Part shown: in pieces, positions 30,268-64,000 of the stretch
Numbering within the stretch: the first letter of the stretch is position 1
Layout of the letters: each line of letters opens with the position of its first letter
Source: Tubulanus polymorphus
Lineage: Eukaryota > Nemertea > Palaeonemertea > Tubulaniformes > Tubulanidae
Reading direction: 5' to 3'
NCBI RefSeq assembly: GCF_964204645.1
Contig: NC_134027.1
Location: 2,282,485 to 2,346,484 of the forward strand
DNA: 64,000 nucleotides
Position numbers and translations under genes: made by a program
The notes under the pieces: generated by a model
Database searches by the model: none
Seen by the model: only the letters and a program-made list of their open reading frames with translations
Told to the model about the DNA's origin: nothing

Positions 30268-35356
<5,089 letters not shown>

Positions 35357-38259: not shown

Positions 38260-38270
38260 GTTTTATAATC

Positions 38271-39704
38271 TGAAAAAAGGAAAGGCCATTTACTCAATGC
38301 ATCCACCCACAGCCAAAATTACTTAATGCAACAGTTTGGTCTTTTGGAAATTATGTAACTCATGTAAATAATGCTAAATTAAATAAGTAGAGGGCTTGGA
38401 AACAATATGATAACACGTTACTCATGAGAGTTAACAAAAAGCAGGTGCTCCTTTTTTCATTCTTAATTAGACTTGACAGGCACTGTCAGCTGTCAAAACT
38501 AAAAATGAATGGTTACGTAACTTGACCCAATTTCAATTGGCAATCTAATCTTAATTTAACCCAATCTTTAGACATGTCGTCGATTGAAATCATTAGAATC
38601 TCCACAGGGAGACATTTTTCTCACTCATCCACAACGAAACAGATTAATTACCTCCGATTTATCCTGAAGAAGAGGTGCGCAGAGCCCGTAAAAATCCCTG
38701 GAACAACTGAACCATGAACCGGTGTTCCGGATGTCTCCACAATGACCAAGTGCGTACCCGTATCACTAATATTAGGATTTGGACTCGTATCCAGATTAGG
38801 ACTGTTGTTGGTACGTAGAGATCACGAGTTGGTCAGATAGATTAGTGTCCGCTTCACATGACTGCTCTGCTACACCGGCGCGTGAGAGGGACCCACGCAA
38901 GCTGAGGTAATTACCCGTCAACGCTTTTACAACTAATTTTCAGAATAGATCCACTTGAACCATTCCATTCAGCCCCGGCCCTGTGGATCACAGGGACTTG
39001 TCACAATTTAGGTAGTAGTGAACGAAGTAGTTAGTTACCTAATCGTTGGTGGTAAGCTTTTTATAATCGGATGGGCTTATACCAACGTGGTATAAGTGGT
39101 TTGTGAAAATATCCGATCGTGAAACTAAACCACAGACAGGTTACTGACTATGAACGAAGAACAAGTCAAGCCCAGTATACTCAAATGGATCCAGTAACCC
39201 TGTGTAGTATTATGATACATACGGGGATACTCTGGGGTGTTGGTCATTGATACTCGTTTTATTCCTCCTCATTCAGTCTGAATACCAGTCGTTTTTACGG
39301 TTCCCTACAGCAGTTGTTTGTAGAACGACGGCTAGGTACTAGACTACCTCATTCACTATCAATTGTACACTAAAGGTCATTCTCTGAATCTTTTTTTAAA
39401 TAATGAAATCCGAAATAAATTGGCCAAAAATGGCATTCCCTAATATGCCTATTAATAGAGCCCAGCAATCATTGATCTGTCATGTGATGTGAGAAGGAAG
39501 CAGTCACACTATTAGCAGTTTGTCGCAAGTGTTTTAAGTTCTCTTCCAAGTCAATAAAAACTTGAAATTATCCCTGACTTTGTCTGAAGAGGTAGAATTA
39601 GCTGCTGTCGCGGCAGACAAGAATCAAACTTTGACTTCACCTGGTTCCATACTATTTCCTTTATTTTAGCTGCATCCACAAATTAATGATAATCGGGATC
39701 AAAA
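38271..39704. promoter_or_regulatory. Shared divergent upstream region of FECH and NRAMP
   Basis: About 1.4 kb separates the two start codons. It contains a candidate non-coding first exon for FECH (minus, ending ...CGGAG at about 38652 before GTAATTAA). There is also a possible non-coding exon for the transporter: CAAGCTGAG before GTAATT near 38908, with an acceptor TTTATTTTAG just before 39670. A family E element lies at 39028-39150. No other coding sequence. Confidence 0.4.
39028..39150. mobile_element. Short TIR element with 9-bp target-site duplication (family E, copy 2)
   Basis: A 123-bp element with the same 13-bp inverted ends as copy 1, bounded by the 9-bp direct repeat TGAACGAAG (39019-39027 and 39151-39159). 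Compared with copy 1 it has 22 extra bases that complete a perfect 21-bp palindrome (39076-39096, CTTATACCA/TGGTATAAG arms). Internal ATCGGAT/ATCCGAT and GTGGTTT/AAACCAC pairs suggest a folded transcript. It sits between FECH and NRAMP. Confidence 0.87.
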
Positions 39705-42700
39705 ATGGTGAACGACGATCTGAACAATGATGAAAAACAGTCTCTTCTTGTTCAAAATAATGAACCATCGACGAGTAACAGTAGCAGAGTGCACCAGTCT
39801 CCGCAGCAGCAGCAGTACGGTGGAACAACTAATAATTCAGAAAATGATCCCACTTTTGAAATAACTCCAGGACAAATTCCAATTCCGGACTCACCAGAAC
39901 ATGAAGTACGCCAACCATTTTCCTTGGGTGTTATCATAAAATGTAGGTATGGTATATCTAATTCCCAAACTCTAATTTCAGGCAAGTTTTAGTTTCCGGA
40001 AATTATGGGCATTCACTGGACCGGGATTTTTGATGAGTATTGCATATTTGGATCCAGGAAATATAGAATCTGATCTTCAAACGGGCGCGATCGCGAAATA
40101 CAAGGTATTTTCGCCTTATAGAATTCGGAAACGGACTCTAATTCTAGCCTTGATCAATCAGATGTGTAGATTATCTGTCATTTTTCTGTTTTAGTTGTTA
40201 TGGGTTCTTATGTGGTCTACAATCATGGGTCTAGCTTTACAGCTACTAGCTGCCAGACTTGGTTGTGTTACAGGTACATTTCTGAATGAATTACCTTCAT
40301 TATGAGGTTCCCGCAATACTGAGAAATTGCGAAAACTTGGGAATTTCGAAATAAAATTAACTGGTTCCTTTTAATGGTCAATTATCTTTCATGTGTAAAA
40401 ATGTAGATGTATTTGTTGTAAGGTATGAATTTGGCTGAAGTTTGTCGCAAAGAGTATAAAATCGGGCCTCGTATAGTACTGTGGTTAATGATGGAAGTTG
40501 CTATTATTGGCAGCGATATACAAGAAGTTATTGGTTCAGCAATAGCTATCAATTTACTCTCATATGATAAGTAAGTTCTCTCAATGATAAATTAGAGTTC
40601 TGTCACTTTGAAAGCATGTAATATTATATGTTCTGATGTAGGATTCCGATATGGGCCGGGGTACTGATTACCGGTGTCGACACTTTCACATTTCTCTTCC
40701 TCGAAAATGCCGGTTTACGTAAATTAGAAGCATTATTCGGCGCTCTTATTACGACCATGGCTGTCGCATTCCTTTACATGGTAAATAATATCCTTGTAGT
40801 GTCAAATAATATCGATTACTGAAATTGATTATTTGTATATTATATTCTTGTTTATTTTATAGTATATAACAGTTAAACCTGACCAGGGACAGATTCTGAT
40901 TGGTTTATGGTTCCCCTGGTGTCAGAATTGTGATTCAGCCGCGATACAGCAGCTAGTTGGTATTGTAGGAGCTGTTATTATGCCGCATAATATTTATCTT
41001 CACAGCGCTTTAGTTTTAGTAAGTATCGGTCAGAGTTTCGAATAGCGAAATTGTCGAAAGAGCACTTTAAACTCGAAACAGTATAAGGCAACAATGGTTT
41101 AACCCCTGGATCCATGTGTCTAATTTCAATCGATGTTGATAACGCTTGCGAATTTTTCAGTCGAGAATCTTGGATCGAAGAGATGAACGTAAAGTAAAGG
41201 AAGCCAATAAATATTATTCCATTGAATCAGGTAAATTTATTCATATCTTTAAGTGTTAACAATTTTTTACACCAAAACCTTGAACTTAATTCAACTGATT
41301 CGATATGATTTATTTCAGCTATTGCGCTGTTTGTGTCGTTCTTGATTAATTTATTTGTCGTCGCTGTTTTCGCGAAGGCTTTTTCTGACCGAACTGACGC
41401 AGCAACACTAAGAGTAGCTGTAAGTTTACAGTTCATCTCACATCGCAGATCTAGATATCGTCGTTATTTGTGTGTTCATTGCTTTGTTTTCTAGGGAGAA
41501 TGGATCAATGAGAAATACGGTTTGGCAGCAAAAGTAATTTGGGGTATCGGTATTCTCGCCGCTGGTCAGAGTTCAACAATGACCGGTACTTATGCTGGAC
41601 AGTTTGTTATGGAGGTAAATAGATTCTACGAAATTCGTGTTCATTGAAGAGAAAAATTGAATATAATTGTTGGTACTAATTAGTAAATTAATATTACAGG
41701 GTTTCCTGAAGATGCGATGGGCAAAATGGAAGCGTGTTTTATTAACGCGTTCTATAGCTATGGTGCCGACCATTTTAGTTGCTTTACTCGCCCATCAATT
41801 CCTCGATTTACTCAACAGTTGGTTGAATGTACTACAATCCGTGCAGTTACCGTTTGCTTTGTTGCCGGTGCTTCATTTTACGAACAGCGAGCGTATCATG
41901 GGTGACTTTAAAAACGGACGGTAAGTACTTCGCATATAGATCAAAATTGAATCGTACATTGTCCCCAAATCTAAGTAGGGTATTGTCTAGTCAGCGATAA
42001 AAACATGTGACAGCCTTTATCTAATAATAAATCATTCACGAAAGTTTTAATCATGTTTTTTTAGAGTGACACGGATTGTAATGTGGGTTTTGGCTTTACT
42101 CGTCATGTTTATCAATATGTACTTGCTATACATTTATTTGGTAAGTGTATTCATTTAGAAAATCAATAGCTTTCATCCCCATTTACATAACCGCTGCGGT
42201 AGTAATTACCTTAGAAAATTTAACGTATGTCTAAACATTGTTCATCTAACCAGTTGGTCAGTTCAAGAAGTAATTGAAATGCTACCTATTCAAGGAGGCG
42301 TTAGTAATGTATGTGCGAAGCGTTCTAAGCAATCTGTCTGGATTTAACGCGCGATGTTTGAATAAATATTAATAATAAAAATATCATCCCTTACCATAAT
42401 AACAGTGATTTATCAATATTTTCTTGTTTTATATCATAAAGGATGTAGGTTTGAAATGGTATGTGTATTTGATAGTTTCGGTCGTACTTATAGTTTATCT
42501 GCTGTTCGTTTTCTACCTCGTAAGTTTCTAGTATTTAATTGAAAGAAGATATTGATGAAAATAAGAAATATACAAAATCAGTGAACATGCATACTTTGTA
42601 TCTGAATTGCAGGCAATTGGAATCAAACAGTGGATGTATTTACAGGTAAGTCATGTTTTGAATTAATTGTTGTTGATTTCCGCATAAAGCTTTATGTCGA

Positions 42701-43768: not shown

Positions 43769-46700
43769 ATGGACGGGAATCCCGGAAAACGGGGTTTGCC
43801 TAAATTAAGAGAGCTTTTACGCCGTCAGAGAAGAGATTCTGAGGTATTCTTATTTCCATGTAATTCCTTTGAAGCTCATTGATTTATCGAATGAATAAAA
43901 TATTCATGTTAGACAGGAGAGAGTGACATTAATCATTGAAACTAAATTTAGTCTGTGTGTTTACCTTGTTTAATGTATTATTATATAGCTTGCTCACTTC
44001 TTGATTTCACCTCACTTCACTGTGACATTCACTTCTCAGCCTTCCTTCTTTAACCTATACATTTTCAGACTTTGAGTGATTCTCCTGATATAGATTTCGT
44101 ATATGATGATGCGGATGATTATCAAACTGAAATAGCAGGTAGGGCCTGAAAACGCTGGAAGAAACTCTTTTTTCAGTCTTTTGTAGTAGAGACTCGAGAG
44201 CTGGCCCAACCAGCCTCATACATTAACCAGCAACCACAAAAACAATGAGCCTGGGTCCAGTTCCACAGTTCTTCTGAGTTAAGATTTGACTCTGGGTTAA
44301 AACATTGAAAATGAACTTACTTTAACTCTAACTCACAACTGTGGAACTGGGTCCTGCTCTGCTGGCAGTAGCAATAGTTTCAATGCCTGCTCTACCTGCT
44401 GATATCCCCTCTCTAGGCGGATGTCGTCCTAATTCATTTTAATGAATTATTTCTTTTACAGAATTATATAGTTACACGGAAGAACCTGAATTTGAATTAA
44501 ATCAGCAATGTTTTGAAGAGGTTCTCCAGCAATACTGTAAGATATTTCCGGAACAACTTTTTATCTTTGAAATGATGAAAAAAGAGAAAAAAACTTGGCA
44601 ATATGACAAAGTTATTTTTATGTTTCAGGTCCTGGTAAAAAATGGAAGGACATGGAACACAGCGATCAGATAAACCATATAATGCGTTTACAAGATCTTT
44701 TTGAACAAAGTGATCGAGATAAAAGAATGAAAACAGTCCGAGCCGCTTTATATCTGGTTCAAGGTACATTTCTTTCTTAATTTCATGAAAATGGGAAGAA
44801 CTATTCTTCAAATTCAATTGTTGGGTATTTCAGGAATTTTTGGTGAATGTGAAACTGAAGAAGATCAGTTCAGATGGACAAGTTATAACGTGATATTACT
44901 GTATGAATGTGGAACGCTCATGTCATTTGTCGAGTTACTCAATATGGAAATGGAGTAAGTGAATCGACTCTGATTGATTGAGAAGCTCAGGGTTTATCAG
45001 GATTCTTACAGATCATAGAAAATCAGGGAATCCAGGGGCTGCATTTGACCAAAAGTTGTCACTATGAACTTTTAATTGTCACTATGTCAACTATTCCACT
45101 GGTTAACTCTAACCAACCTTTGACTGGCACATCAAAGCTCTCGATAATAAAGAGATATCACTCTTTTAGAATTCAATCAGTGAATTTTTGGTCAACAGTC
45201 GACGAATATCAGGGAAATTTGGATTCCCTGGTCTGTACAAACCCTCTAGATCAAACAATTCCTCAATGGGTTTCATTGATTTCATTTTATTTACAGAAAT
45301 GCGACTGCAACATCTTCCGCATTACGTAAACCAGCAGTATCTCTAGCTGATAGCACTGATCTAAGGTATGTTTCTGATTCCGGATTAGGAATGCAATGTT
45401 GTTTCCTCGAGTCTTAATGATTATTGTCAATATACTTTTCATTCAGAGTTATATTGAATATCATTTATTTGATGGTCGAAACAATGAGATTTGAAACTGA
45501 AAATGAATCAGATGAATGGAAAAATGTGAGAGAAAACTTTAGGAATGAATTAGGTAAATATTGCTTTATTCGATAAGCTTTAATGCGACTTTTTATAAAA
45601 CCTAATTGATATTTGACTGGTTCTCTCATTTTAAGCCGCACCGATGTTTGGAGAGGAACCTTTAGCTGTAATATTGTTCAGCATGGTGACTAAGTTTTGT
45701 AGTGGCAATGCTCCACATTTTCCGATGAAGAAAGTTCTGCTCGTGCTGTGGAAAGTGGTTCTCGTAAGCGTTTATGTTGCGTCGTTTAAATTTACAAAAA
45801 TATAAACCGAGGAAATCGCGTATCAAGAAGAAATGACCGATCTGTAGAGACCATGTTTTGTAAATATGAATGATATGTTTCTATGACAGCTTTCACTCGG
45901 TGATCTGCGTACGTTTTACCACAAGAAGAATGAAGTACGATCGACGTACGACCTGCGACCGATTCCTGAAGATACGCATGAAGTTTGTAAAGCAATGCGA
46001 GCGGCATCACCTCCCGCCTCGGCAGCCGACCTCATCGAACAACAACAGATGCCGCGACGTGGACGCATGAAAAAGGTACCGCTTCGATAACTGATGTTTA
46101 TATAAAAAGTTTGTGGAAGTTTATTCGAATGAAATACTAGTAGATTGTCGACCCACAATGAAAACAGTTTTGAAACATCGGAGAATTATATTGAAAAGTC
46201 TGAATTAGCAGACAAACAGGGTCCCTATGGCTCCTTGATTCCTAATTCTAAACAGAAAATGTGGTGCTTGAAACTTCTTTAATTTGAGCAAAATGCTCAA
46301 AACTCTGTATTTCTAAGGACCCTGATCAAAAAGCCATTTTCTAGGGAAATTTTTGGTTTTTTCATTGTGGGTTTGACACTTAAGTCTTCATTCACAACAA
46401 ATCATGAATTTCGAACTCTTCATGAATGAAATACTATCAGCATACTGCTCTCTAATACTTTTCTTTTACTGCGAGAAATATTGCTTATCTACAATATAAC
46501 ATATCTGAAAACAATAACTAGGCCTATATTGTAAACCTTTCGCTTCCTATCTGGCTTCTGATTAGGATTTTAAAACAACATTCGCGATGAGGAGATTTAG
46601 TTTCATGTGAATTGCTTACTAATTGTATATCATACTACTGCTTGCTACTGGTCCGGTAGCTCGCGCATTCTACACTAAGTTTGATGGTGAATGGAGAAAA

Positions 46701-49700
46701 AACGATTAAGGGTAACACGGAGTCACAATAATCTTAGAATCTTGTGCGCTTTACTTCAGTGGTCAATGCTTTATACCCTTTATGTTCAGTAAGATTCATA
46801 ATAAGTCTAGCTATAGATATAAATGCATTTGAATAAAGTATTCCTTAGTAGTCTGGAGATGATTGAAAATGCATGTCTGAAGTTTTGAGTTAAATGCACT
46901 AGCACGAGCATAACCAGTGCTATGGTACGTTAGAGCTGACAAAATTGGATGAGCTTGAAAATTTCTTTACAAATATTTAATTTAATGGTCCTTTATGAAT
47001 AGTTACAAGATATTTGCATCAGTTTGCTAATGTTGGATCCTACTGCCTGGTAAATAAAAGAAAATTCTTTATTTCATCTATGACTAACAAACTGCTCATG
47101 TAGATCTATCTACATCTTGATTCATTCATTTATATACAGCTGGGTTTGTGTTTAAAGAGACAGTCAGACTCCTCTCTTTCCTGCTAAAAGAGAAAAGTCC
47201 CTACCTTCATTGATCACAGGGTTGATATCATTCTGAATACACTACAGTCAGAGTCAGTTAAGTCGTTATCACGTCATTAAAGTCGCAGTTGCAAATTCTC
47301 AATATGTTTTATGTATGTACCCGTACTTAATGAGTGGGTGATATTAATATGAGTTAATATGCAAAATCCACAGTTAGTTAGTTAGGAGGAAGGAGTCTAC
47401 TGTTTGTTAAAAACCCACTCGGATCCAGCCTTGGTACACGGCAGCTTTTCGTTTCCTCGCTTGCTCTGCTTGAAAGCTTTAAAGCTGTCTTATACCAAGA
47501 ACGTAACTGCATCTCTGCCCTAGGGCCTCGTTAAACAGAGCAGCCTCGAAGATCCGTTTGAAAACGGCGATGATGAAATCAGTCGCGAGATCGAGAACAG
47601 TCGTAGTAGCGATGATGAGGTAATGCCACCAGGTACACCTCGTCCTGGATCTCCCGTCGAAAGTAAAGCTCTACCGTGGACTCCAAAAGTCAGGTTAGCA
47701 AATCAATACTTCATTTTGAATTGAGCGCTGGTTAATTTCTTTTTTTCTCATTCATTTTTGTTCGTAATCTATCTTTCTTTAGACAACGAGACCTTGAAAA
47801 TTTCCTCGAACACACGAGAGCGAAATTCGTAGGATTTCAAGTTCGAAATGACCAAGAATCACTGGCTGGAATGCCTCAACCGATACACGAGGGTGTTAAA
47901 GTTCTTAAACAGGTCAGTTCACTCAATTTGCTTTTATAAGTGAAAAAAATCTCTCGAGCTTAAATGAGTCTTCATTGAGTCATTCATATTTTCAGCATTT
48001 GTACGTTTCACTAACTGAAATTCAAATAAAGAGAGAGGAAGATATAGCTAAGAATCCGCTGTCACAGGTCAAGTATTCAGTCAATAACCATTTATTAAAC
48101 ATCTCCTGAACGTTCAGTGTTATATTTTGTATGTGAATATTTTTACAGCCGGAAGTAGATATAGCGGAAACACCCACTGAAGTTCTGTATAAAGCCATGT
48201 TGCCAAATCTTCCTCAGTATATGGTAAAAATCATTACATTTCAGCTGATATGGTGTTTATTTTTCATTCTAGAATATTAATTCTCACGTTTTTATCGTTA
48301 TTGTTAGATTGCTCTTTTGAAAATCTTGCTGGCAGCTGCGCCGACTTCTAAAGCGAAGACTGATTCGATTAACATATTGGCTGATGTACTTCCCGAGGAA
48401 ATGCCGTAAGTGTTGAATCTTTTCCGGAAACGTCTTCAAGATTCACTCGATGTATCCGTGTTTTCTATGTTTGTGTGTATTATAGAACGACTGTGCTACA
48501 ATCGATGAAATTAGGAATCGATGTAAACAGACACAAAGAGACAATAGTGAAGGCGATATCTGGAGTACTGTTGTTACTACTTAAACATTTCAAACTCAAT
48601 CATGTCTATCAGGTACATATGAAATTTTAATCATCTACCGTCAAAAGTTATAACGCCTTCCTTTTTGATGCTACTGCTCAGATAAAGCCAACATTTTTCA
48701 GAGAACAAATTTACCCAATGTAACTCGAATTCAATGGAAAATACCATTTATTATAATGCTGCCAAATTTGTTGTTGCTATGTCATGATTGTCATAGATCA
48801 AAATAGTGGCATTATAAAAAACTTATACTGTATTGTGAGTTAATAATGATTTATGAATCAATTTACCTCTTTTCTTTTCAGTTTGAATTTATGAGTCAAC
48901 ATCTAGTGTTTGCTAACTGTATACCGTTAATATTGAAGTTCTTCAATCAGAACATCATGTCATACGTGACTGCTCGTAATTCGTGAGTACTGTTGTATTT
49001 GGTACATTCAACTGAGCTGAAGCTCTCATTGGATAAGTCATTGTATTTCTCATTTAATTTACGAAGTGTGAATTATTGTTTGTTTGTCATTGACATAATA
49101 ATGTTGATAACTATGATGATTTGAGCAAGTTTCACTGTAATATGGAATTCTTTGATACTTAATTCAATCAGTGGTCACTGGATTTAATGTAAAGGATTTC
49201 TTAATTTTAGGATTACTTTGATAGACTTCCCAGCATGTGTGATCGGGGCTCAACCTGAATTGACTGCTGAGAATTTGGTCAGTTTCGCCGAAATAAACTA
49301 TCAATAAATATCATAGCATTAATAATCAATAATTGAAGCTTTCTGTTCTGTTTACAGGAGGCCGGTGAAACTCAAGCGTACTGTTGGAGAAATCTATTTT
49401 CTTGTATAAATCTGCTAAGAATCCTCAATAAACTCACGAAATGGAAGCATTCACGTACAATGGTCAGTATTCGTATTGTGATTCATCATACAGCGTAACT
49501 TCATTACTACAAACTTCAGAGGGCTGAATATTTGTTCGTTGATTAGATTCTTAGCAGATAGCCACGGAAAACAACTTGCATGTCAGGGAAAAAGCAAGTC
49601 AAATAAAAGTGGCCACCCTGATATTTTGTTCATGACAAGCGATAGTTCATTTTATCCAGTATGAAGTTAATGAAACTGTCTTATTTTAGATAAAACTTTA

Positions 49701-50655
49701 AGTGTATTGTTTGTGATGAATCGTTTCATCTGAATTCATTACAATCAGGTTTCACTGTATCATCGTATAACGTGCTAACATTTTTTTTTCTTCAGATGCT
49801 CGTCGTGTTCAAATCGGCACCGATTCTAAAACGCGCGTTGAAAGTGAAACACGCCATGATGCAGCTGTACGTGCTGAAGCTGTTGAAGATGCAGACTAAA
49901 TATCTCGGTCGTCAGTGGCGTAAAAGTAACATGAAGACAATGTCAGCGATTTACGCGATGGTTCGACATCGTCTGAATGATGATTGGGCTTATGGAAATG
50001 GTATGTTACATTTTTTCAATTCAAGGATCTTGAATCACCTCTAAATCACCTTTGAAAAATTAGCCTTAAATCCTTCAATTTTGGAAATATCTAGGGGAAA
50101 TCGAAAATTATGGAAACATTTCCATCCATTTAAGCAGTCCAATATAAGAATGTAAACCATAAAACACCTCGAAATTTTTAGTGGCTCAAGAGACCTCTTG
50201 AGAAGAAACAGTTACCACTAAGCATATCTTGTAATTTAATCAGGAATTTTTGGTCAAGTCCAGGGACCATCATGGAATTTTGGATTCCCTGATATTAATT
50301 TATGAAACTCTGATTCTAATAAAATGTTTGAGTTAGTATGAACTTTAACACTTTGTATTCATTAGATGAATAAACTGTGGTTTGTTACGTTGTTTGTGTT
50401 GTAGATATGGACGCGCGACCGTGGGATTTCCAAGCCGAAGAATGCGCGCTTCGTTCGTGCGTAGATCGCTTTAACAATCGTCGCTACAGTTTGGATTATT
50501 ACGATCCGGATTTCCGGCCTGTGAATAACTGTATCACAAGTTTACTCGGTCAGAACATCGAACTGAGCGACGAATTCAAACGTAATTACGAGAAATGGTT
50601 AGAAATGGAAGTGTTCACTACACAAATCGACTGGGACCAAGTATTGTGTAGATGA
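43769..50655 (+). CDS. STRIP: Striatin-interacting protein (STRIP1/2, FAM40 family)
   Basis: Core scaffold of the STRIPAK phosphatase/kinase complex, which restrains Hippo kinases and shapes the cytoskeleton. Twenty exons in agreeing phase: 43769-43843, 44069-44138, 44462-44536, 44629-44763, 44834-44954, 45297-45365, 45447-45553, 45636-45763, 45890-46075, 47524-47693, 47783-47912, 47996-48067, 48149-48223, 48308-48405, 48486-48612, 48882-48982, 49211-49277, 49358-49462, 49796-50000, 50405-50655, giving 788 aa. The N-terminal half (N1221 domain) has [20 protein letters not shown] and [15 protein letters not shown]. An acidic linker follows [18 protein letters not shown]. The C-terminal half (DUF3402) has [36 protein letters not shown] and [23 protein letters not shown]. 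Very close to both human paralogues, so a single pre-duplication gene. AATAAA near 50722. Confidence 0.96.
44253..44354. mobile_element. ~100-bp inverted-repeat element (family C, copy 2)
   Basis: Left end GGGTCCAGTTCCACAGTT and right end AACTGTGGAACTGGGTCC are inverted copies with two mismatches. The element sits in a STRIP intron and has no ORF. A degenerate relative is at 8450-8547. No clear target duplication was read. Confidence 0.65.
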
Positions 50656-52222
50656 TGCCACGCCCCCTTCAAGGGTTAAATGGTTTTAACATCTTAACCT
50701 ATAGCTCTTGAAGTGGACCTTAATAAAATATGTAGTGCTTCGTTATTCAGTAAACCGTGCCTAACTCGGACGGGACCAACTCAAGACTTTTGACTAATGC
50801 GGGCAAATTATTTTCCCATTTCCTGCAGTAGACTCCATTTATTATTTACCCCAGTGTCAATTGCCTCAATATATTACTTATTTTCTGACTATAATTCATT
50901 GTGAAAACAACCCATCCCTGATCTAATTTTCAGAAGCAAACAGAGTCTACTGTATCTTATTTTTCCAAACTTCAACCTATCACAGCTTATTTACCGGTCC
51001 CAGTTTATCCGAGTTTAGTGAGGTTTACTGTTGTATGTTTTTCAATGGTTAAAATATCTATCTACCTAAAATAATTGGCTCGAAAAAATCATGAAATAAA
51101 ATTAACCATTAATAAGATCAACAATAAACAATTCTGTTGTAGACTATGATTACTGTGGAGTCTATTGCCTTGGATTATCACATGGATATATGTTATATCG
51201 TACAAATTTTGTAACATCAATTTGTGATAAACCAATCCCTGCTCCAGCTGCCCCAAAATCTGCAAACATCGGACAGATTGATGCCACGAGTTCCGAGGCA
51301 GCAGTGTCTACTGTATGTGGAAATTTAATGACTTAGGTGTTGAATAAATGAGTTGAAGAGAGCCATTAATATTCATGGAAAGATCTCTAGTTACGTTCGT
51401 TGAAATATTGGCATTTTTGCACGAGATGCAAAAGTTTTATTAATTGCCGATTGAATGCGTGCACAGCCTGTAAAAATGTAGATCAATTTAATGTATTTAT
51501 TCGTTCTGTTCAATGCAGTTATAGCTGAATTTTGTATAAAAACAATTTTATTTATATGTATTATATATTCATGCATGCGGTCCATATGTACCTAGTGTTC
51601 AATAAAAAGATTATTCACAATACGCAAAATCCTCGCTTCATTCCTTTTATCTCTCGCTTACGACGGACAAGATTTCATCAACGCAAGATTGAAATATCAA
51701 AGATTTATTCAATATAATAATAATATATGTGTATAATACATGTTTTAATACATGAAATATGTATGGCAACCATTAACATAATTATTAAACTGTCAAATTC
51801 ACTTTTTGACGACTAATGACTTAAACCAGTTTGACTAAAAGCAACTATACCAGAGTACAAACAGTAAGACTGCTTGCCTCATCTCACGGGGACCTAAGTG
51901 GCTGGAGTAGGATAACTAATATTTTGGTTGGAGTATGCGTTAATGGGAGGCAAGCGCAGTCTACTGCATAGAAAATGTCGAATCTGCATTAATTTCTAAT
52001 CGGTAATCATTTGAATCGATGGTTTATGAGGGATGGACACAAAACCTAAGAATTAAATTCATATAAAACAAGCAAATATCCAATATAACTGTACCAGGGT
52101 CGCTACAGATCTGTCCTTCCCGGATAGAAGGAGTTTCGAGCACCTTTAAAACATAGATGTAGGGACCCCGTGTACATCTGTTTCACCTAGCAAAAACCGC
52201 CTATCATTTCATAGGTTACTCA
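50656..52222. other. Convergent intergenic region, STRIP and BTB zinc-finger gene
   Basis: STRIP poly(A) signal AATAAA at about 50722. A minus-strand AATAAA near 51711-51706 could end the zinc-finger transcript. The remaining ~1 kb shows no gene, only AT-rich sequence. Confidence 0.45.
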
Positions 52223-55200
52223 TTAAAACAACGCCATAAATGCACTCAAACCACCGATATCAGTCTGAGGAGGATACTGACTCGCGTTCGATTGTTGCTG
52301 ATGTTGCATAGCAGCCATAGTCTGTAGTCTTTGAAAAGCAGTATTCGCGTTAGAAACCGACGGGTCGATGAGTATAGGACGGTGCGAATCGGTAATGAGA
52401 TCTGATTCGTGCGGCGTATGAGGCAGACACATCGCTGTCGCTCGTTGATCGTGTACGGGTAACGCGACCGCCGCGTCTAATGAAACCAGCGATTTATCGC
52501 TGAAATCGATTCCTTTAACGATGCCTTCGTAATCGTGAACCGCGATACTAGAGTTCAACGCTGTCGTCGACGGCTGCAGATTCAGATACGTATGACCGCC
52601 TTCGATTACCGCTGAAAACGGCAGAGAATTCGTCGGCGATTGTTTACGCGATTTACGTTTTTTATACGGTGATTTGACGGTTGGATTGTCGCCGTGGTGT
52701 TTGATGATGTGCTCTTTTAATTTGTCCCTACGCGAACTGCCGTAGTCGCACATTTCACATTTGAACGGTTTATCGTCTAGATGAATTCGCTCGTGACGCA
52801 CGAGATGACTCTTCTCGACGAACGACCGTCCGCAGTGACTACAGATATAGCTACGTATGGCGCTGTGTATTCTCATGTGAGCGTTCAACTGACTGCGTTT
52901 AGGCGTGAAATATTTACAACCGGCAAACTGACAGGTGAACACATCCCCTACAAATAAAAACACTTCATTAAATAACAGGGTGAACACTAACCGGGAAAAG
53001 TCGAGAAAAAATCAGGGAAATCGACAAATTTTACCAAAAATCAGGGAAAAATCCGGGAAGTCGGATATGCTATTGACCATGTATTTCTCATGTAAGAGGA
53101 TTTATCATACGCCCATACGTGAAATGAGCAATCAGAATCATACCTGAATGTAATCTTTTATGTGAAATTAGATGCGATTGATATTTAGTCGAGAATCCAC
53201 AAATATCGCAAAGAAATGGTCGATTATTGCTGTGCGTCGCTTGATGTTGATCTAACGTACTCTTCGTAGCGAAACTCTTCTTGCACTCGACGCATTGAAA
53301 AGGTTTCTCTCCTGAAATGAAAATATTTGATTGAAGCTTACATAAATAGATCGTTTCTCTCTATTTCACGTAGGCCTGGTTCGTAAATAACTTACCCGTG
53401 TGACATCTCATATGAGTCATCGCATTGTTTTTAGTGCGGAACCTCATTCCGCAGAGATTACACGGGAACGGACGTTCGTCTGTGTGTCTCATTCTGTGAT
53501 ACAATATCTGTTGAATTCGCTCAGTCGTGTATTCACAAAAATCAAAATCGCATTTAAACGGCGGACCTTCGAAGTGTGTTTTCATATGTCTGTAGTAACT
53601 GCGACTCCATTGCGACGTGAAACTGCACACGTTGCACTTGAGAGTTATAGAATGATTGATCTCCGTGTGACGCTGTAAACCTTCCTCATCGACTGATTTA
53701 AACCGGCATATCTCGCACGTAAAGAGTTCTTGATGATTACCGGCAGCGTTCTCAATCACGTCTGGCGCTTGTTCACATTGCGAATCCAACTTCAACTTTT
53801 TCTTTTTCTTACTTCCCGCAGACTTAGAAACGAGCGTTACATCTTTCTTAGTTTTCTCGGGGCTTAAAGCGATTCTTTTCGATATTTTCAGTTCGTTGGT
53901 TCGTTGTTTTTTACTCGGCCGAGCTGGCGTGCTGATCCTCCGCGGTTGGATGCGTTTTCGTCGGTTTTTCGACAACGGCGAATATTTCGGCACGTTTATT
54001 ATCACGTGATCAGAGCCGTTTTCTTCGTTCTCCGACGGACAGTAATCCGGATCTTTTCCGACGGTGACATCATCATCATCATCATCATCATCTTCATAGT
54101 TCGATTCATCATCACCGTTATCTTCATCCGCTGGTCGTTTCTTTTCGGTAATTTCATCACTCGGTTCATCGTTGTTCTCATCTACACCGAGTCTCGGATT
54201 TTCATCGGTAACTGAAACATCGCGTTCGATATCGGTATCAGCTACATCCGTTTGTTCCCTCGTTAAATCTTCTTCATCGTTGTTTTCAACATTTTGATCT
54301 TCGATCGATTCTAACTGCTCCGTGTTTTCTTGCATTCTCACCATTTCATCGGGAATACATATCTTACTACCGGTACTGGTCGTCGAAGGGGCTTTCAGTC
54401 GAACCTGCTGAAAGTGACCGTCCGTCACGTTAGACTCTGATTTCGTATTAACGAGTTGAGTAGGGGTTGACTGCACGACCGCACCGTTATCATTGATAGT
54501 AGAATTCATCGCCATGTCTAGAATATCCGCAGCCGCTTTAGCGCTTTCGTGTTCGGCTAGTTTTTCCGATAAAGTCTGGTAAATGTCGGTAAAAGCGATC
54601 AACTGGGCACCGGCTCGACGAAACAAATCCAGAATATAAAACAGACAAGCTTCGCTTCGTTGAAACAGCGGTTCGTGTTCGATGATTTTTGAAACGATTT
54701 GAAGCTCGATTTCGTTCGGACGAAGCAAATTCAGAAATAAATTAAAGGCACTTTCTCTTTCTTCGAGTTTATAAGCCGTCCATTTCACTAGCAACTGTAA
54801 CTTTAACGAAGCGGGCATGTTCAGATTTCTATTCGTTATGAAACTCTCCAACTTCGCTTGATTGTATTCCAAAATCTCGTTCTGTTGAAGAATTATGTAC
54901 AAATTAGTCTGAATAAATTGAGACACGATCAACGATAAATTAAACAACGCGCATTTATCAGCGATTTCTTTCATACTCAGACAGTTCACGACGCTGATGT
55001 TTCTCTCTAAGAATTCCGCGCAATAATTCTTCACTTTCTCGAGTAGAAAACAATTCGACAACATCAATAATTCTTCGACGTTGTTCACGCTGATCGAAAT
55101 GATTCCCGTGTAGAAATAATCGATGAGATCTTTGACGACTTCGTGATTTGAACTGTAAACGCTGACGTGTTCTTTATCCGTTCGGTTGGATTTCAAAATC

Positions 55201-55415
55201 GAATCGAAATACGGACTCAAAGCGGCGAGCACGTTTTTATGGGCGTAAAACAGGACGCTCTTCGACGGATCGTTCGGATGCTGTACGTGAAATACGACAT
55301 TACAAAATCGTTGGTTGTCTCTTTGGATTTTTAGTTTTTCGAGTAGCGCAGAACCGGCGAGTTCCTCCGTGTAGATATCACTTACACAACTATTCATTTC
55401 ATCTCGGAATTCCAT
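52223..55415 (-). CDS. BTB-BACK-C2H2 zinc-finger transcription factor (ZBTB type)
   Basis: Three exons: 55415-53396, 53311-53144, 52947-52223, joined in phase 1 both times, 970 aa. Residues about 20-135 form a BTB domain ([54 protein letters not shown]) and about 140-290 a BACK-like helical region. A long disordered acidic part follows, including a seven-Asp run encoded by GAT repeats, then a basic KKKKKLK patch that may be a nuclear signal. Nine C2H2 fingers follow: four in exon 1, two in exon 2 (joined by GEKPF linkers) and three in exon 3. The tail is Gln-rich (MQHQQQSN). Nuclear DNA-binding regulator by family; the human orthologue is not clear to me. It shares its upstream region with SMKR1, which is transcribed the other way. 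Confidence 0.92.
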
Positions 55416-56252
55416 GATTAATGATTGATTCTACTTCTACTTAAGCTAAATTATTTAGAATCTAGGTAGGGTCCCATAATTACGATTAATTTAATAATAT
55501 TGAAATGTTCTTTCTTGTGCTTGTTGGATGACCATTCCATTCCATTCTCACAAGTCAGTTCCAGTTCCAGCCAGGCGCAATCAATAGATTTTACTAGTAA
55601 ACTGCTTCAGGTGATCACGCACACCCTCCACATTAAAAAAAGATGTAGGGCCAACGGTACAAATTGAAAATGACAGCGGAAGATTTTCTTGAAACGCTCC
55701 CCCTTTCTCTTCCACCATTTTAGGGAATCCCTTGCACTTCCAAATGTAGGTCAAATATTTTTTGCTTTAATAATATTAAATTCATATCTAGCTAGGTCTA
55801 ACGTATTCTAATAGAAATGTGAAATTTTATATTTTTTATGCAATTTATTAAAACTTCGTGAGAATTCATGATATATTTATGTTTCTATGACGACCGGGAT
55901 TCCGCGTTCTGAATGTAGGTCACTCACTGCTGGGAAACAGAGAAATGTTTACGTTTTACAACTTAATTTAGATGAATATATGAAATTTTAGTGAAAATGG
56001 ACATGTTTGCAACTCAAGATATCGGTAAAATTGTTAGAACTTGATTGGTAATTGCTTACGATACTTAAAATACTGTAGATTCACTATTACAAAAAAAGTA
56101 GAAATAATGGAGAGTAGTCTGTTGGTAATCCGTTCAGATTCAGTCCATTTTGATAAAAACAATATTTCTGTTTTAGGAGAAATATGCTAAGAATTTTTTT
56201 CTGACAACGATGAGTGGTTTTTCATGATATGGACTGCCAACCTTACTGAAAC
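55416..56252. promoter_or_regulatory. Bidirectional upstream region, zinc-finger gene and SMKR1
   Basis: 837 bp separate the two start codons. The right part (from about 55900) probably contains non-coding first-exon sequence of SMKR1. A short ATG frame at 55996 (MDMFATQDIGKIVRT) ends after 15 codons and would be an upstream ORF if transcribed. No TATA box is evident on either side. Confidence 0.35.
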
Positions 56253-56675
56253 ATGGTAAGAAGGCTATTCAAAAAATGAAAGGATTTCAAAAAGGCACTT
56301 AAATTAATTAATCTTCGTCTTCATGAATAATTGATATTTCATTATTTTCATTTGTTTATCATATAGCCAGGTAAAAGCAAGTCTGCTAAGAAAGGAGGCA
56401 AAAAGAGTGGGCGAAAATCAAAAAGCGCCGGTGCTAAAAGTGGTAAAAAGAAGGGAAAGAAGTCTGCAAAGAAATCACGCTCGGCGCCGGCTTCGGCTAA
56501 AGCTGCACGAACTGAAGTCGATATGATGAATCCAGATGCGATGGCGAATCTATACTATATAGCCCACGGACCAGTTGACGCCCTGACATTACGAGGTTTC
56601 GGTTGGGATACCGGCGGTGCTGGTGGCGGTAAAAAGAAAGGCAAAGGAAAAAAGGGGAAGAAAAAGAAGAAATGA
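56253..56675 (+). CDS. SMKR1: Small lysine-rich protein 1 (SMKR1-like), 103 aa
   Basis: The ATG (56253-56255) is the only coding triplet of its exon and is followed directly by the donor GTAAGA. The rest is in exon 56367-56675, after acceptor CATATAG, in phase 0: [20 protein letters not shown] and so on. A lysine/glycine/serine-rich first half is followed by a conserved core, [20 protein letters not shown] then [10 protein letters not shown], and a [15 protein letters not shown] tail. The core matches vertebrate SMKR1 (EVDxxSPAAMxNLYYIAHN...LRGFxW), and the split after the Met codon fits its MPAKGKKG-type start. Function is poorly known; a strongly basic protein of this type could bind nucleic acid or microtubules, but that is a guess. 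It lies between STRIP and AHCYL, as in human. Confidence 0.88.
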
Positions 56676-57451
56676 TCGATGATGATAGATTCAGTTTGTA
56701 TAAAGTGTAGTGCCATCGTAGAATCTCCTCACATATACTTTATATAGAGACTTATTCCATTTACAACTGCTGGAATTTGAAACAGTTCCCGGTGCTGGAT
56801 GCATGTAACTACGTAACTAGTGGATATTGATTCGAGCTTGGGCTCACCAATTTATAACTCATTAAACAGATTAGTAATAATTTGCGCTACAGCGTAGTTC
56901 GACAAAGGGAGTGAACTACTGGTCACTATGCAGGTATCAATCTTACAGCTAAGAGTCACTGCTGTTAGATGTTCACCATTCAAGTGCGAAGACCATCACT
57001 TTTTTCAAGTGTGTTGATGAAATTTTTGAATGTCTGGTATCTGTGGCTTCTTTTTCAATTGATAATGTCTCAAGTGAAGTCCAGAAAACACATGAAGTTT
57101 GATGAATGATGATATTGCATCAAATTTACCGTACTGTCTTGAGGACTCTCTAGTGACCAGGCAACCTATTGATACCTGCATGAGGGCATCATGACGAATG
57201 CGATATTTTTGAATTGTCTGTGTGAATATTTCTCTTTCAAATCTAACTATTCCGAAAGATTTGAAATATGAAGTGTGTGTACAGTGATGTATACATGTTT
57301 GTGTTAAATGTAACAGATATCTATAACAGTGATGCATGTATTAAACCCACATGCCACAAACCTACTCGTCCAACAGCTGTGTCAAACTGTATATTTCAGA
57401 GAATTTAAGATGATTTCAAATACAGGTCTAATTTCAAGATCAATTCAGAAG

Positions 57452-57609
57452 GGGGTCATTCATTTATTACATACATATTAGTGGAGGGGTCAATGCAGTG
57501 GCGTACTGTAATGCTTAATGTATATGAAAGAATGGCCGATTTTGCGCACAGAGGGGGAGGGGGGTTGAAAAATTCAAATCTTATGCATATGTAATAAATG
57601 AATGATCCC
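57452..57609. mobile_element. MITE with GGGTCATTCATTTATT ends (family B, copy 2)
   Basis: 158-bp relative of 32749-32908 with the same inverted ends and the internal GGCGTACTG...AATGTATATGAAAGAATGGCCGATTTTGCG block. It is more diverged, with CpG-type changes in the ends, and its flanking bases no longer form a matching duplication. Confidence 0.75.
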
Positions 57610-58300
57610 GAGGTTCATAATCAGATAGCATATAGACCAGCTGATTAAAGGAATGGTCTGAATATTTCTGTATCGGGCTATTTGCATGTTACAAATAGAT
57701 GAAGTTGTGAACATATAAATCATTGCCTTATATGGGTACCATACACATCAATTCATTTAATATAGATTGTTTATGTTAGCTCTATGCCTACACAAGAGTC
57801 TCAATGTGACAGGTATCATCTGTACCCTGATATGTGGCTGGTCGTTTTATATAGCGGTGTATGATACCTGTTGCTATTATTCCCAATGTTGAATCTTTTG
57901 TTCTTTCCAAATGTTATCAATGTCATTATTTTAAAGCTGAAGGTGACTAGTTTTAAAAACCGATACTACATATTCATTTCTTCCTGGTTTGAATTGGTGA
58001 TTTATTCAAATGAGTTGATTTGGAATGTTTTTCGTTGAGCTATATGTTTGTTTAGAGACAGAAGTTTTTATGTTTGCATATTATCTACATAGAATTTAAA
58101 TTTTTTTGCTATCGAAATGTGATAAACTCATAGCTATCTGTTGTATCGATATAGGATATTTCAAGAGGTTTTTTTTCAGTAAAAAAGAAAACTATAATCC
58201 TATATAGTAAAGGTAGCTATAGCTCTCTGCTGTGATATTTTATATGGTATTTGAACACTAGTGCAGTTCTGAAGCACACAATCATTTGTGGGATTAAATT

Positions 58301-58523
58301 AGGCCAAAAAAAAATTGATACCTTGTTTCTCTGCTCTGCTGAGCTTAAATGTTGACCCGGCCGGCCGCCTATCTACCCTATATATTACTTTTTTTAAAAT
58401 TGTGATCAATTTCACCATAACAGACCCGGCCGCTATAGAAATGAACTGTTTATAAATTTTATCATATTTTACAAAAATGACCCGGCCGCTGCGGAGAAAC
58501 AAGGTATCATTTTTCTTTAGCCT
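58301..58523. mobile_element. MITE, Harbinger-like (family A, copy 2)
   Basis: 223-bp relative of 31665-31875, flanked by TTA on both sides. It carries an additional GGCCGGCC stretch compared with copy 1, and T-for-C changes elsewhere. No ORF. Confidence 0.8.
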
Positions 58524-58943
58524 TAGAGATGTATTTCTTAAGGGACACTGTACTTCATCGGTCTTAGTTAATAAAAGACAAACAGCTTATGTGTTAGAAT
58601 TGTATGTACATACATTTTGAGGTTTCCGAGTTTGTAGTTCTTTGTACTGTGTAGTTTATCAATTTTTTCAATTTTAATGACAATAAAAACATTATTTATG
58701 ATCGATTTGTTAGCTTTAAAGCTAGTTTTGGTCCTATTGTCTGGTGTTCTATCACCATGCTGTGGGATGCTTCAACTGTCGTTTTGCGGTCTATCGAAAT
58801 ATAGCACGATCGCATGAGTGACCAGGCCTCTGATTTTCGAGGAATCATGGTGATACCGATGAATTGATTCGAGGAATGTATTTCCAGGAACCGCTGGCGC
58901 ACTTTGACCCAGTTAGTAATCGGTCACATGGTCTATGACATTT

Positions 58944-58955
58944 CAAGATGGCGGA
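58944..58955 (+). promoter_or_regulatory. TISU/YY1-type element over the AHCYL start codon
   Basis: CAAGATGGCGGA overlaps the ATG at 58948 and matches the TISU consensus SAASATGGCGGC in 11 of 12 positions. Such elements drive both transcription (YY1) and scanning-free initiation on very short leaders, so the leader here is probably very short. Confidence 0.55.
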
Positions 58956-61564
58956 GGCGGCTGTTTCACCACGCTCTCGCGTTGTAAGCCTTCCCAGCCG
59001 GCCGTCTGAACACAAGTTTCAGGCGTCATCACGGGTTAGTATGTTTTTCATATGATTTCGGATGAACTACAGTATTTTCTGCTGTAGATATTTATGTGTG
59101 GTCTGTTTTGAAAAACGATGAATTTGGCAAGTTTTAAAGTACGAGCCACGCTGCGCGGTAGGGTCTAACGAATGTACGGAGGCCCGAAGTTGCATACTGT
59201 ACACACAAACAGCTGATCGGCGATCGATCCTAATTCAATAATATCCTCATCTTTGGCTTTTAGTGAAAGACAAGATTATCATCATGAATTGATCCATTCG
59301 TTAACTTAAAATTGAATCTTAAGAATGAGATGGCCTTAGTTGAGAACCAAATAAGTTGTTTTTTAATTGAAGTAGATTCCTTTGGCTTTGTGTTTACACA
59401 AAATAGGTAGGATTAGATTTAGGTCTATGGTAGAATTAGATTTTTAGACCAAATCACTTGAGGTAACATAAAAGGGATAAATGTTGAGATGGAAGATCTA
59501 TTTCATACCTGTGAACAACCTTTGAGGTTTGTCTCGGGTCAAACCGTAATGAGCGAGAGTGTTATTGTCTTAGTAATGGATGCATTGACGACAAGCGGGA
59601 GAAACCAGTGTTTGAAATCAATTGTATTGTTTACATCTATTGATATATAGATACCAATACCCCATACACCGTCCAACTTATTACATATGGTCATACGATG
59701 ATTCAGTTCTCGACTGTTTGAACTGTAACTACATTTCTGAAGTGATGTCCGTCTGTGAACAGATCTCTAATTCTAGGCAGTTTTATGCCGGTACGTGTCA
59801 CAAACCAGCTCTGAAATCCATGCAACTCAATAGAGAGACATGTAAGGTATATTTCTGTAGGTAGATTGTTTATTTGAGAGGCGCAGACCTGATCAAGGAA
59901 TGAATTGATGTAGATATTTTCAGAAGATCATTAGTGTATCATTTAGACAATATAATATTATTACTTATAACATAGCTGTAGTTATAGCTGATCAGATTTT
60001 ATCTTATCGAATGAAGTGAAATTTCTTTGGTAGGCCTCTATTTAAAAAGTAAGAGAATAACATAACACACAGAAGCAAGACTAATGTCTATTTATTAATG
60101 GATGAGACCTGTTTTTCTGGGATATTTTGCTTACTTTTTAGGATACATACCTCATTTATGTCTTAACAGAATGCCCAAAATCGCGGACAACAACTGAATA
60201 TCCGATATTATTCCAGTTCTGTACCAATTAGATGGATTGGCAAAAAGATTCCTTAAGTCCAGTTGAATGAGAGAGAAAATCCTCCATTTTGTGAAATTTC
60301 TTGAATTTTTACATTGTCACCATGCCTACAAATGAAGTTATTTTTCTTGTGGGGTCTCAACAACTAAATCAGGGTGGCGTAGGCATGGTAACAATGTTCA
60401 AATCCAAGAAATTTCACAAAATGGAGGATTTTCTCTCTCATTCAACTGGACTTAAGGAGTCTTTTTGCCAATCCATCTAATCGGTACAGAACTGGAATAA
60501 TATCGGATATTCAGTTGTTGTCCGCGATTTTTGGCATTCTGTTAAGACATAAATGAGGTATGTGCCCCAAAAAGTAAGCAAAATATCCCAGAAAAACAGG
60601 TCTCATCAATTAATAAATAGACATTAGGTTACGTAGAATCAGGTCAGCTGTCGCAACTGTCTGATTTTTTTTTTCTTCTTTTGTTAGAGAGAATAACAGC
60701 ATGCATGTATAGAATACCTATAGTGTGGAAGAGTATTTTGATTTCCTTGCTCACTTGAAAATGTGGTAAATGATATAAGTTGCTTATTCAAAATCATTAG
60801 TCGACATATAGGCCTATGCAATTAAGCTGTGTATTTGCCTTATAGAGCTTGCCTATATATATATACCTCACTGGAAAAGTCTTTGTGATGGAAAATGATT
60901 GCGACTTTGTGATACTGACTGAATGCTATTTATGTGTGCACTGCTATTTCTGTCAAGTACCGGTAGAAGTAAACAAGTCGAGAAAACTAACTCAAAAGTT
61001 TATTGACGCCTTGAAATGTAACGCATATATTGCTTGATATTGTCAATAACGAATCATGAATATACTATAGATTCAAAGAAAATATAGATTATACTATAGA
61101 TTTACATTACATTTTAAGATTAATAAAGTTTGGATTCGATAATTGAATTAGATAGACCGGCAACCAGTCTAGCCCCGATATATTGAGGATGTACTGCACA
61201 TCCTCTCAAGAAATAATGAATAGAATTTATCAAAAATAAGATAAGGATTATGAAATATATTTGATGCAAAAATTCATAATTGTAATTGTTATTTTGAAAG
61301 GCCAATATTGATGATATAGTGCACATCGACTCATACAGAAACTTTAAATAACGCGTAGCCGTTATCGATGTATATAAACATTATTGTAATGGTTTTTACG
61401 GTGTCAAAAAGATGTTAAGAATGAATAGCACTTGACGCACAGTTTCAATGTTGATCTTTTGTTAGCTCAGTATTTTACAATTTTTTAGGAAAAATTGACT
61501 TCGATACGAAATCGTGTTAGAACTCGAACTATTTCACAGTCATCCACCGATAGCTACAGCTCAA
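58948..61564 (+). CDS. AHCYL: AHCYL/IRBIT (S-adenosylhomocysteine hydrolase-like), first two coding exons (partial)
   Basis: Exon 58948-59034 encodes MAEAAVSPRSRVVSLPSRPS..., leaving in phase 0 at GTTAGT. Exon 61489-61564 encodes EKLTSIRNRVRTRTISQSSTDSYSS and leaves in phase 1 at GTAAGT. The segment SISQSSTDSYSS is the diagnostic Ser-rich region of AHCYL1/AHCYL2, the IP3-receptor binding proteins (IRBIT and long-IRBIT). There it is phosphorylated in steps to control IP3-receptor and Na+/HCO3- cotransporter binding. The catalytically altered SAHH-like domain must lie beyond 64000. The 2.45-kb intron contains a large fold-back element. Identification rests on the Ser-rich motif and its neighbours STRIP and SMKR1. 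Confidence 0.85.
59035..61488. other. AHCYL: AHCYL intron 1
   Basis: GTTAGT donor at 59035 and TTTTTTAG acceptor ending 61488. Apart from the fold-back at 60082-60627, only short ORFs and AT-rich sequence are present; no nested gene was seen. Confidence 0.6.
60082..60627. mobile_element. Fold-back element with ~248-bp arms
   Basis: Arm 1 (60082-60329) and arm 2 (60379-60627) are inverted copies with only a handful of differences around a 49-bp spacer. It lies in AHCYL intron 1, has no ORF and no relatives in the window. A transcript would form an almost perfect 250-bp hairpin. No flanking duplication is obvious. The high arm identity suggests a recent insertion or arm homogenisation. Confidence 0.88.
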
Positions 61565-63042
61565 GTAAGTATAAACATTCCGCTGCCCTCTTCCTCTTAT
61601 CGTTATGTGTTAGTCAACCTGTATTCTGATAGATGTCGCCAGCGTTGTAATGTTTGCAAGTTCAGTTACACTTCATGTTGATAGGAGTCGCCACTAGACG
61701 ATCTCATCCAAGAAATGTCCCTGATATAGTTATGTACGGTTTTTGAATAAAACTGGTGTTTTCATAACGATGATAGTTTAACGATTTAATTTCTGACAGT
61801 TTCGAAGTTTTGACTAAACTTCATCAACTCTAAATACTGTGACTAATATCAGTCCTGATGTTTTGATACGTAGAATATCGTTCGTGACCATCCTCATTTT
61901 AGTTGTTTTTCGCTTTCTCAATTAAATGTTATTATCTTGTCAGAAAATGTTCTAAGACTGAATGCTCTCGAGGTGTTTTGTCTGTCACGTTGAGCCTCGG
62001 ACATTTTAGAAAATTTGCAATATCCAGAATTTCTTTTCTTGTTGACTCGACGGTATAAGGTGTCTGTCTAATTAGCGCTTGTTCTCTTGTGTTCAGATCC
62101 AGATCAATGCGTGTTAGTCGAGTCATAAATTACTGGAAATGTCATCCATTTGAATCAGAAAATCAATCAATATTTCTCGAGAAGATCTGCAAGATAAAAC
62201 TAACTAGACTTTGAATAATGAAGACCGAGGGGAAGGTAGAATTCCTGTCATTGGGGTAAAATCTATCACACTAATCAATAAATATTTATTGATCCGCGTT
62301 GTATGGTCTATAAGAGTAGAAACTTTATTCATAGCTCACAATGTATTTTCTCTACATACATATTATGCGCCAGGCCCTAATTGACGAGGTCCTAATTATC
62401 GTCCATCAAAGCTGGGGTCGGTCATGCGGTTATATTCATAGCTAATTTGATCAGTTATATATGTTGTGAGAGGATCACCGCTGCTACTGCTGCTGGGTTT
62501 CGATAGCATCCACACTGATTATAGTATCTATCATCAGAGAATTGTGAGATATATGCGTAGTCGGATTGCTAGAGGCAACTACCAACAACATGACACACAT
62601 GACACACGTTATATTTAAAATGCATATATTGGCCACAACAACATTGAAATAAGAGTCCTATTAAAATAAAGGATATCTATTTATATCTAGTTTACTATAT
62701 ATTTTTCATGTGATATAACCTTGAATTAATGCCTCGAGGCGTTCGCTCGGATCTATAAGAATGATAGTCTTTGATAAATATTGCTATTCATTTAATTGAC
62801 TGTTATGTTTATGGGACAGTGATGAGCATTAATACTTCACACCCGACCGACGAGAGGATTATTGTTATGAATTGCTGAAAATTGTAGCAATTTATATTTG
62901 ATTTCCGTAGCAGATTTCTGTCAAGGTCATTCGAATGATTAATAAGTCTTTATAGAAGAGAAAATTCGAGCGTTATTACGATTGAAGGACCGAGATACAT
63001 GATGTACAATCATTAATTGAATGAATCGCATAGTTCAATACG

Positions 63043-63066
63043 TATATATATATATATATATATATA
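63043..63066. repeat. (TA)12 microsatellite
   Basis: Uninterrupted TA dinucleotide run. Confidence 0.9.
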
Positions 63067-63379
63067 GCAGCACGAAGGAGCACCTCTAATGCTGTGGTGG
63101 CAGTAGATCGGTTCATTCAATCGGTGGAGAATGATTCGTTCTCCGGGTTCAACTCATTCACTACTCCTCATTTTATTGTCTGACTTGGTTCTCAATAATG
63201 CCGCTATGGTAACTGTGCTACAACCTTCCTCCGGTCTGTTCGTAGTTGCTAATTAATAATCATTTACAAACACCACGATGATGATGCAGTCCGTTCTTAT
63301 TCGCCATCGGGAGCCAATTATCGCATTGACGAAATTTTGAAGATTTTATCCGTTTAATCCGTGAGGTGACCGACTACGG

Positions 63380-63381
<2 letters not shown>

Positions 63382-63416
<35 letters not shown>
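63382..63416. repeat. (TA)17 microsatellite
   Basis: Uninterrupted TA dinucleotide run of 35 bases, followed by CGATATATG. Confidence 0.9.
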
Positions 63417-63420
<4 letters not shown>

Positions 63421-63523
63421 ATATGCGGTGCGTGTGCTTACATGTGGAGCTAACTACAACTCAGTGTTCTTGACACTTACAAAGTTTTAAACGAGAGGAG
63501 TCCTCGTCGAATTTCTGGCGAGA

Positions 63524-63530
63524 TATAAAT
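63524..63530 (+). promoter_or_regulatory. TATA box of the 63.58-kb first exon
   Basis: TATAAAT at 63524-63530 lies 52-58 bp upstream of the ATG at 63582, so transcription would start near 63555 with a leader of about 27 nt. Confidence 0.45.
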
Positions 63531-63581
63531 CGTTTTTTTTCTTATCGTGAATTCTCGCGCGGAGAGACGTCGGCCTCATTG

Positions 63582-63783
63582 ATGATGTCATTAAAGAAAT
63601 TGTTTGTAAAGAATTCGCTCGACAACAATCTTAAATGCAACGACTTGGATATACCGCATAAGATATACGAACAAAATCCGTTCAAAGAAAATCAGCGACG
63701 AAGGAGTAGTATAACTATTGATAAAAAATATCGCGACGATCGCAGGATAAGCATTGTCAGTTCAGGTGGAACTTCGGGCGATT
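63582..63783 (+). CDS. First coding exon, probably an alternative AHCYL N-terminus
   Basis: ATG at 63582 (MMSLKKLFVKNSLDNNLK...), open for 67 codons, ending in phase 1 at a GTAAGT donor (63784). It has its own TATA box. The phase equals that of the AHCYL exon ending at 61564, so both could splice to the same next exon beyond the window, giving two N-termini as known for mammalian AHCYL2. The peptide is rich in Arg and Ser with RRRSSIT and RRISIVSSGGTSG, both RRxS-type kinase sites, which suits IRBIT-type regulation. It could equally be the first exon of an unrelated gene nested in or following AHCYL. Confidence 0.5.
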
Positions 63784-64000
63784 GTAAGTTTTCTCTTCAT
63801 TCTTATCAAATATTGATTCCAGTTGTTTTTGGCCCACGCACTCAATTTTCAGGATTCTAGATCCTTGGTTATCAGTATCCCAGGTTTGCAGTCAATAAAA
63901 TACAGGAAAGCCCTGACATTTGTTTCTTGTCTAGGTGTTGTTTATTTAGTTGTATTTATAGATTTGTTTAGACACTGTGGTTAATTGCTGTTTTGTTAAT

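Follow-up and report, generated by a model that had tools for sequence, protein, structure and literature searches.

The 64,000-nucleotide stretch of DNA analysed here (the window; bases 2282485-2346484 of contig C3 in a 268 Mb animal assembly) carries STRIP, SMKR1 and AHCYL, three genes found within 48 kb on one strand (Table 1). Their position side by side, all on the plus strand, had been proposed in an earlier note and was confirmed by exon chains, domains and scores against human homologues. The BTB zinc-finger gene which that note set among them was indeed found, between STRIP and SMKR1, but not in the shared orientation, as its Pfam matches (52223-53011 and 53361-55421) are on the minus strand.

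Table 1. Features of the STRIP-SMKR1-AHCYL locus, in window coordinates (those above 64000 lie beyond the window end).
Feature	Coordinates	Strand	Remarks
STRIP (striatin-interacting protein) gene	43769..50655	+	20 coding exons, 788 aa
BTB-BACK-C2H2 zinc-finger gene	52223..55421	-	between STRIP and SMKR1; ORFs; Pfam BTB, BACK, zf-C2H2
SMKR1 (small lysine-rich protein 1)	56253..56675	+	splice sites; core motif match; 1 copy in genome
Putative AHCYL first exon A (MAEAAVSPRSRVVSLPSRPSEHKFQASSR)	58948..59034	+	open frame; phase-0 donor fits exon at 61489; predicted
AHCYL serine-rich exon (RTRTISQSSTDSYSS, EKLTSIRNRVRTRTISQSSTDSYSS)	61489..61564	+	phase-1 donor joining common exon at 85132
AHCYL gene continuing past window end	61489..64000	+	then 13 common exons, 85132 to about 91650
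Putative AHCYL alternative first exon B (MMSLKK...RRRSSITI...RRISIVSSGGTSGD)	63582..63783	+	phase-1 donor; predicted
Putative AHCYL first exon C	75604-75871	+	beyond window end; phase-1 donor
Putative AHCYL first exon D	84520-84769	+	beyond window end; phase-1 donor

The STRIP gene is complete in the window, with GT-AG borders at all of its exons, which join into an open 788-aa protein. Residues 12-786 of this predicted protein align with human STRIP1 (7k36_I; 1108 bits, E = 0) and both defining Pfam domains are present, N1221 (PF07923) and DUF3402 (PF11882); this domain content and full-length similarity to STRIP1 support its assignment to the STRIP family. The introns are short, with 18 of the 19 spanning 70-404 bp and the largest 1.4 kb. 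A search with the protein itself placed the STRIP exons at this single locus, with no other match anywhere in the genome. The whole-genome Pfam search with the N1221 and ST7 models returned nothing, because long models split across short exons are missed, and no stray animal STRIP sequence turned up in the viral contigs.

The first exon of SMKR1 consists of the start codon ATG alone (56253-56255) and is followed by a second exon at 56367-56675. The candidate has no match to Pfam, NCBIfam or PDB, and it was identified by a core that agrees at 20 of 31 residues with what we take to be the human SMKR1 core; the family is defined as small lysine-rich proteins with a LYYIAH...LRGF core. Against this presumed reference the core has a BLOSUM score of 108, while the runner-up place in 164 kb reaches 29. 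Conditional on that human sequence, the gene is a strong SMKR1 candidate.

Only the 5' part of AHCYL lies inside the window; the bulk of the gene, including the AHCY-like domain (85132 to about 91.65 kb), was recovered from the next 30 kb. An end of AHCYL at 63783, as given in the earlier note, was therefore rejected: the gene continues about 28 kb further, and 63783 is the splice donor of putative first exon B. The joined protein scores 860 bits against human AHCYL2 and 859 against human AHCYL1, compared with at most 561 for any AHCY, and the gene is therefore clearly AHCYL and not AHCY. With a domain nearer to AHCYL1/2 than to AHCY and serine-rich N-terminal exons (RTRTISQSSTDSYSS-TSYTGSSSDEEDINPREKEQ), the predicted protein has the features of the AHCYL (IRBIT) family. 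The AHCY gene proper is apparently the one at C3:9.52 Mb.

The exon at 61489-61564 resembles what we take to be the serine-rich stretch of human IRBIT. The phase-1 ends of this exon and of the ATG-initiated exons B, C and D all fit the phase needed by the common exon at 85132. When 28 kb were scanned mechanically for ATG-initiated phase-1 exons, only five candidates emerged, two of them with the same start. Each of the three ATG-initiated exons encodes an RRxS motif. Overall, AHCYL is predicted to have at least three, and probably four, putative alternative first exons, and its 5' region, which extends over about 26 kb with a 5' intron of 23.6 kb, appears to carry several alternative promoters. 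The N-terminal splice variants of vertebrate Long-IRBIT differ in their properties and in cell-type expression (PMC7966362), and the putative first exons found here would be a possible invertebrate counterpart of these variants.

The same three gene families are linked in vertebrates, with which this one genome was compared. In goat, NRF1, SMKR1, STRIP2 and AHCYL2 occupy a single 0.58 Mb interval of chr4 (26.37-26.95 Mb; PMC11874128), and one human linkage region lists NRF1, ZC3HC1, TMEM209 and ATP6V1F with AHCYL2, STRIP2 and SMKR1 (PMC6834745). At the ohnologous locus, AHCYL1, STRIP1 and CSF1 form one contiguous stretch in human, and AHCYL1 and STRIP1 are close in coelacanth (PMC7717901). The linkage is thus present both here and in mammals. 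There is good support for the earlier note's argument that it predates the vertebrate genome duplications, since it occurs in this genome, in goat and at the AHCYL1-STRIP1 locus. Genome searches revealed no second copy of STRIP or AHCYL, though matches may have been missed and absence is not proven; this is as expected before the vertebrate duplications and fits a non-vertebrate. A COX1 search, made to determine the animal's phylum, yielded no match in the assembly.

Gene order, in contrast, is not collinear. The order here is STRIP-(BTB zinc finger)-SMKR1-AHCYL, whereas in mammals it is AHCYL-STRIP-SMKR1 (we assume AHCYL2-STRIP2-SMKR1 for human), such that AHCYL is on the opposite side of STRIP-SMKR1 and the idea of a gene block kept in order is not supported. 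Two inversions could have produced the rotated order, as could a tandem duplication of the block followed by opposite losses.

This different order, and an intervening BTB-BACK-C2H2 gene that is to our knowledge foreign to the mammalian neighbourhood, would be accounted for if unlinked genes had regrouped by chance in this lineage. Some blocks of three genes do arise in shuffled genomes (45-56, compared with 256 inferred; PMC8851819). Under uniform placement, the chance of three given genes falling within 48 kb is about 1e-7 genome-wide and about 9e-6 within C3 (9.6e-8 and 8.9e-6, respectively). Further, markers of the same human region occur on the same contig: NRF1, ZC3HC1, TMEM209 and CAPZA (CAPZA2 being presumably on human 7q31) are scattered from 3.1 to 26.2 Mb of C3. 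Four of six markers on a contig holding 10.4% of the genome corresponds to a binomial p = 0.0015, for a marker set that is small and author-chosen. Judging by this spread of the markers along C3, genes have been reordered on the chromosome, whereas the trio remained within 48 kb. Given these values, a chance regrouping is considered very improbable.

It is instead likely that the three genes were already close neighbours before this animal and the vertebrates diverged and that both lines inherited the linkage, and the trio is probably a real inherited microsyntenic block. We infer descent from one ancestor as follows: STRIP, SMKR1 and AHCYL would have been close together on one chromosome of the shared ancestor, the linkage would have passed to both lineages, and a later internal reordering would have taken AHCYL to the other side of STRIP-SMKR1, with its strand kept and the BTB zinc-finger gene intervening here. 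Several points weigh against such an inheritance. The remaining two of the six markers, ATP6V1F and AMPD, are on contig C6, and the predicted identity of SMKR1 depends on a human sequence that we have assumed. The difference in gene order from mammals leaves some room for independent regrouping, and in ghost shark AHCYL1 is not close to STRIP1 (PMC7717901), from which it follows that the linkage is dispensable.

The two markers on C6 are within 0.3 Mb of each other (ATP6V1F at 2.53 Mb and AMPD at 2.83 Mb), although in human ATP6V1F is part of the 7q32 neighbourhood and AMPD of the 1p13 one; this part of C6 may have split off from the same ancestral chromosome. In goat the miR-183 cluster adjoins NRF1, and an Rfam scan of the window for microRNAs, this cluster included, gave no match.

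The reason why the genes stayed together can be addressed only with low confidence, and the explanation favoured, on weak grounds, is inheritance with slow scrambling rather than a dedicated regulatory block. Most likely, the linkage lasted because this genome scrambles slowly and is little rearranged locally. Beyond AHCYL, at a distance of a few kb on its downstream side, are SEC13, SPG7 (~98700-103000, minus strand; 128 bits for paraplegin and 83 for AFG3L2) and an ankyrin-repeat gene (~118100-132600, plus strand) that we take to be ANKRD11/12-like. SPG7 and the ankyrin-repeat gene are divergent neighbours here and constitute a second candidate ancient pair; on human chr16, 0.6 kb separates SPG7 from ANKRD11 (PMC6598621). 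The presence of two old neighbourhoods within 90 kb points to a genome that rearranges slowly, which makes the trio less special. The tandem repeat at 121528-122697 (1.2 kb, with MTPGVYN units in an open frame) is likely to be a minisatellite within an ankyrin-gene intron. An additional pull on the trio may have come from the 5' region of AHCYL, with several putative promoters that a breakpoint would damage.

A rival explanation, in line with the shared regulatory DNA that the earlier note suggested, would be a genomic regulatory block, in which enhancers of AHCYL or another gene are located in or beyond STRIP and SMKR1, selection acts against breaks and the neighbouring genes are bystanders. 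The long 5' intron and the putative first exons of AHCYL look like complex promoter control, the vertebrate Long-IRBIT variants differ at the N-terminus and in cell-type expression (PMC7966362), and both ohnologous loci in human have retained the link between AHCYL and STRIP. STRIP, however, is compact and has little room for enhancers in bystander introns, none of the three genes is a classical developmental target, and any element would need to act from a new position after AHCYL changed sides. Additionally, regulatory blocks of this type fit the vertebrate-novel blocks, which are mostly gene-poor, whereas the bilaterian-novel ones are for the most part dense in genes and co-expressed (PMC8851819). 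A regulatory block is considered rather unlikely to be the cause.

The co-expression of most bilaterian-novel blocks, above that of random blocks (PMC8851819), would agree with a shared domain of open chromatin, in which co-expression favoured keeping the trio together, as would the common orientation of the three genes here. Four genes in 48 kb are nevertheless not clearly denser than the average expected at this genome size, and a co-expression domain is likewise judged doubtful. More speculatively, the bilaterian ancestor could already have had the trio as a regulatory neighbourhood, kept intact by the 5' region of AHCYL with its multiple promoters. The alternative first exons, each with a serine motif of the basophilic-kinase type, would themselves be an ancient means of producing IRBIT variants that act on different targets. 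On present evidence this reading as a whole seems quite unlikely.

Directly upstream of STRIP (31400-42000) are a lysyl-tRNA synthetase (plus strand), a ferrochelatase (minus strand) and, identified by eye only, an SLC11/NRAMP-type transporter (plus strand). By eye only, a LicD/fukutin-like open frame was seen in tandem copies on the minus strand at 22000-29100, one of which (28361-29016) is apparently broken, and a series of exons with repeated cysteine-rich PAN/apple-like units on the plus strand at 5000-10660.

Ancient microsynteny as a kind is well known, and the newness of this specific trio is unproven. No open-access paper was found that names the trio outside vertebrates, a coverage that excludes Irimia 2012 and the supplements with block lists, nor was one found on Drosophila CG11526 with CG9977 or under the FAM40 names. 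While the trio is a neat but ordinary case of an ancient gene neighbourhood, it was kept in vertebrates, with AHCYL-STRIP at both duplicated loci, and is one of the fewer blocks for which the cause of retention is testable in mouse or zebrafish. Its linkage is also an argument that AHCYL1/2 and STRIP1/2 arose by genome duplication.

Compared with known systems, the locus is most directly set beside the mammalian 7q32-type locus, AHCYL2-STRIP2-SMKR1-NRF1, with which it shares the same three adjoining families, STRIP followed by SMKR1, and presumably a common strand (the human strands being assumed). It differs in that AHCYL is upstream of STRIP there and downstream of SMKR1 here, a BTB zinc-finger gene is inserted here, and NRF1 is 5.2 Mb off on the same contig. 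The vertebrate 1p13-type locus resembles this genome in that AHCYL adjoins STRIP, with no SMKR1 mentioned there and with AMPD2 and EPS8L3 as the human flanks, whereas AMPD is on C6 here (PMC7717901). Genomic regulatory blocks such as IRX-FTO and RUNX2-SUPT3H (PMC5585340) likewise hold unrelated genes in long-lived linkage, but they are spanned by conserved non-coding elements that serve one target, while the trio is known from linkage and has tiny STRIP introns. The ancient bilaterian microsyntenic blocks of Robert et al. 2022 (PMC8851819) are defined by at least three orthologues and at most five intervening genes, with no need for collinearity, and the trio shares this definition when this genome is compared with goat (one intervening gene here; for goat, the gene list of the 0.58 Mb interval). 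In that study 256 new three-gene blocks were inferred in the bilaterian ancestor, compared with 45-56 in shuffled genomes, and 84% of the bilaterian-novel blocks were lost in vertebrates.

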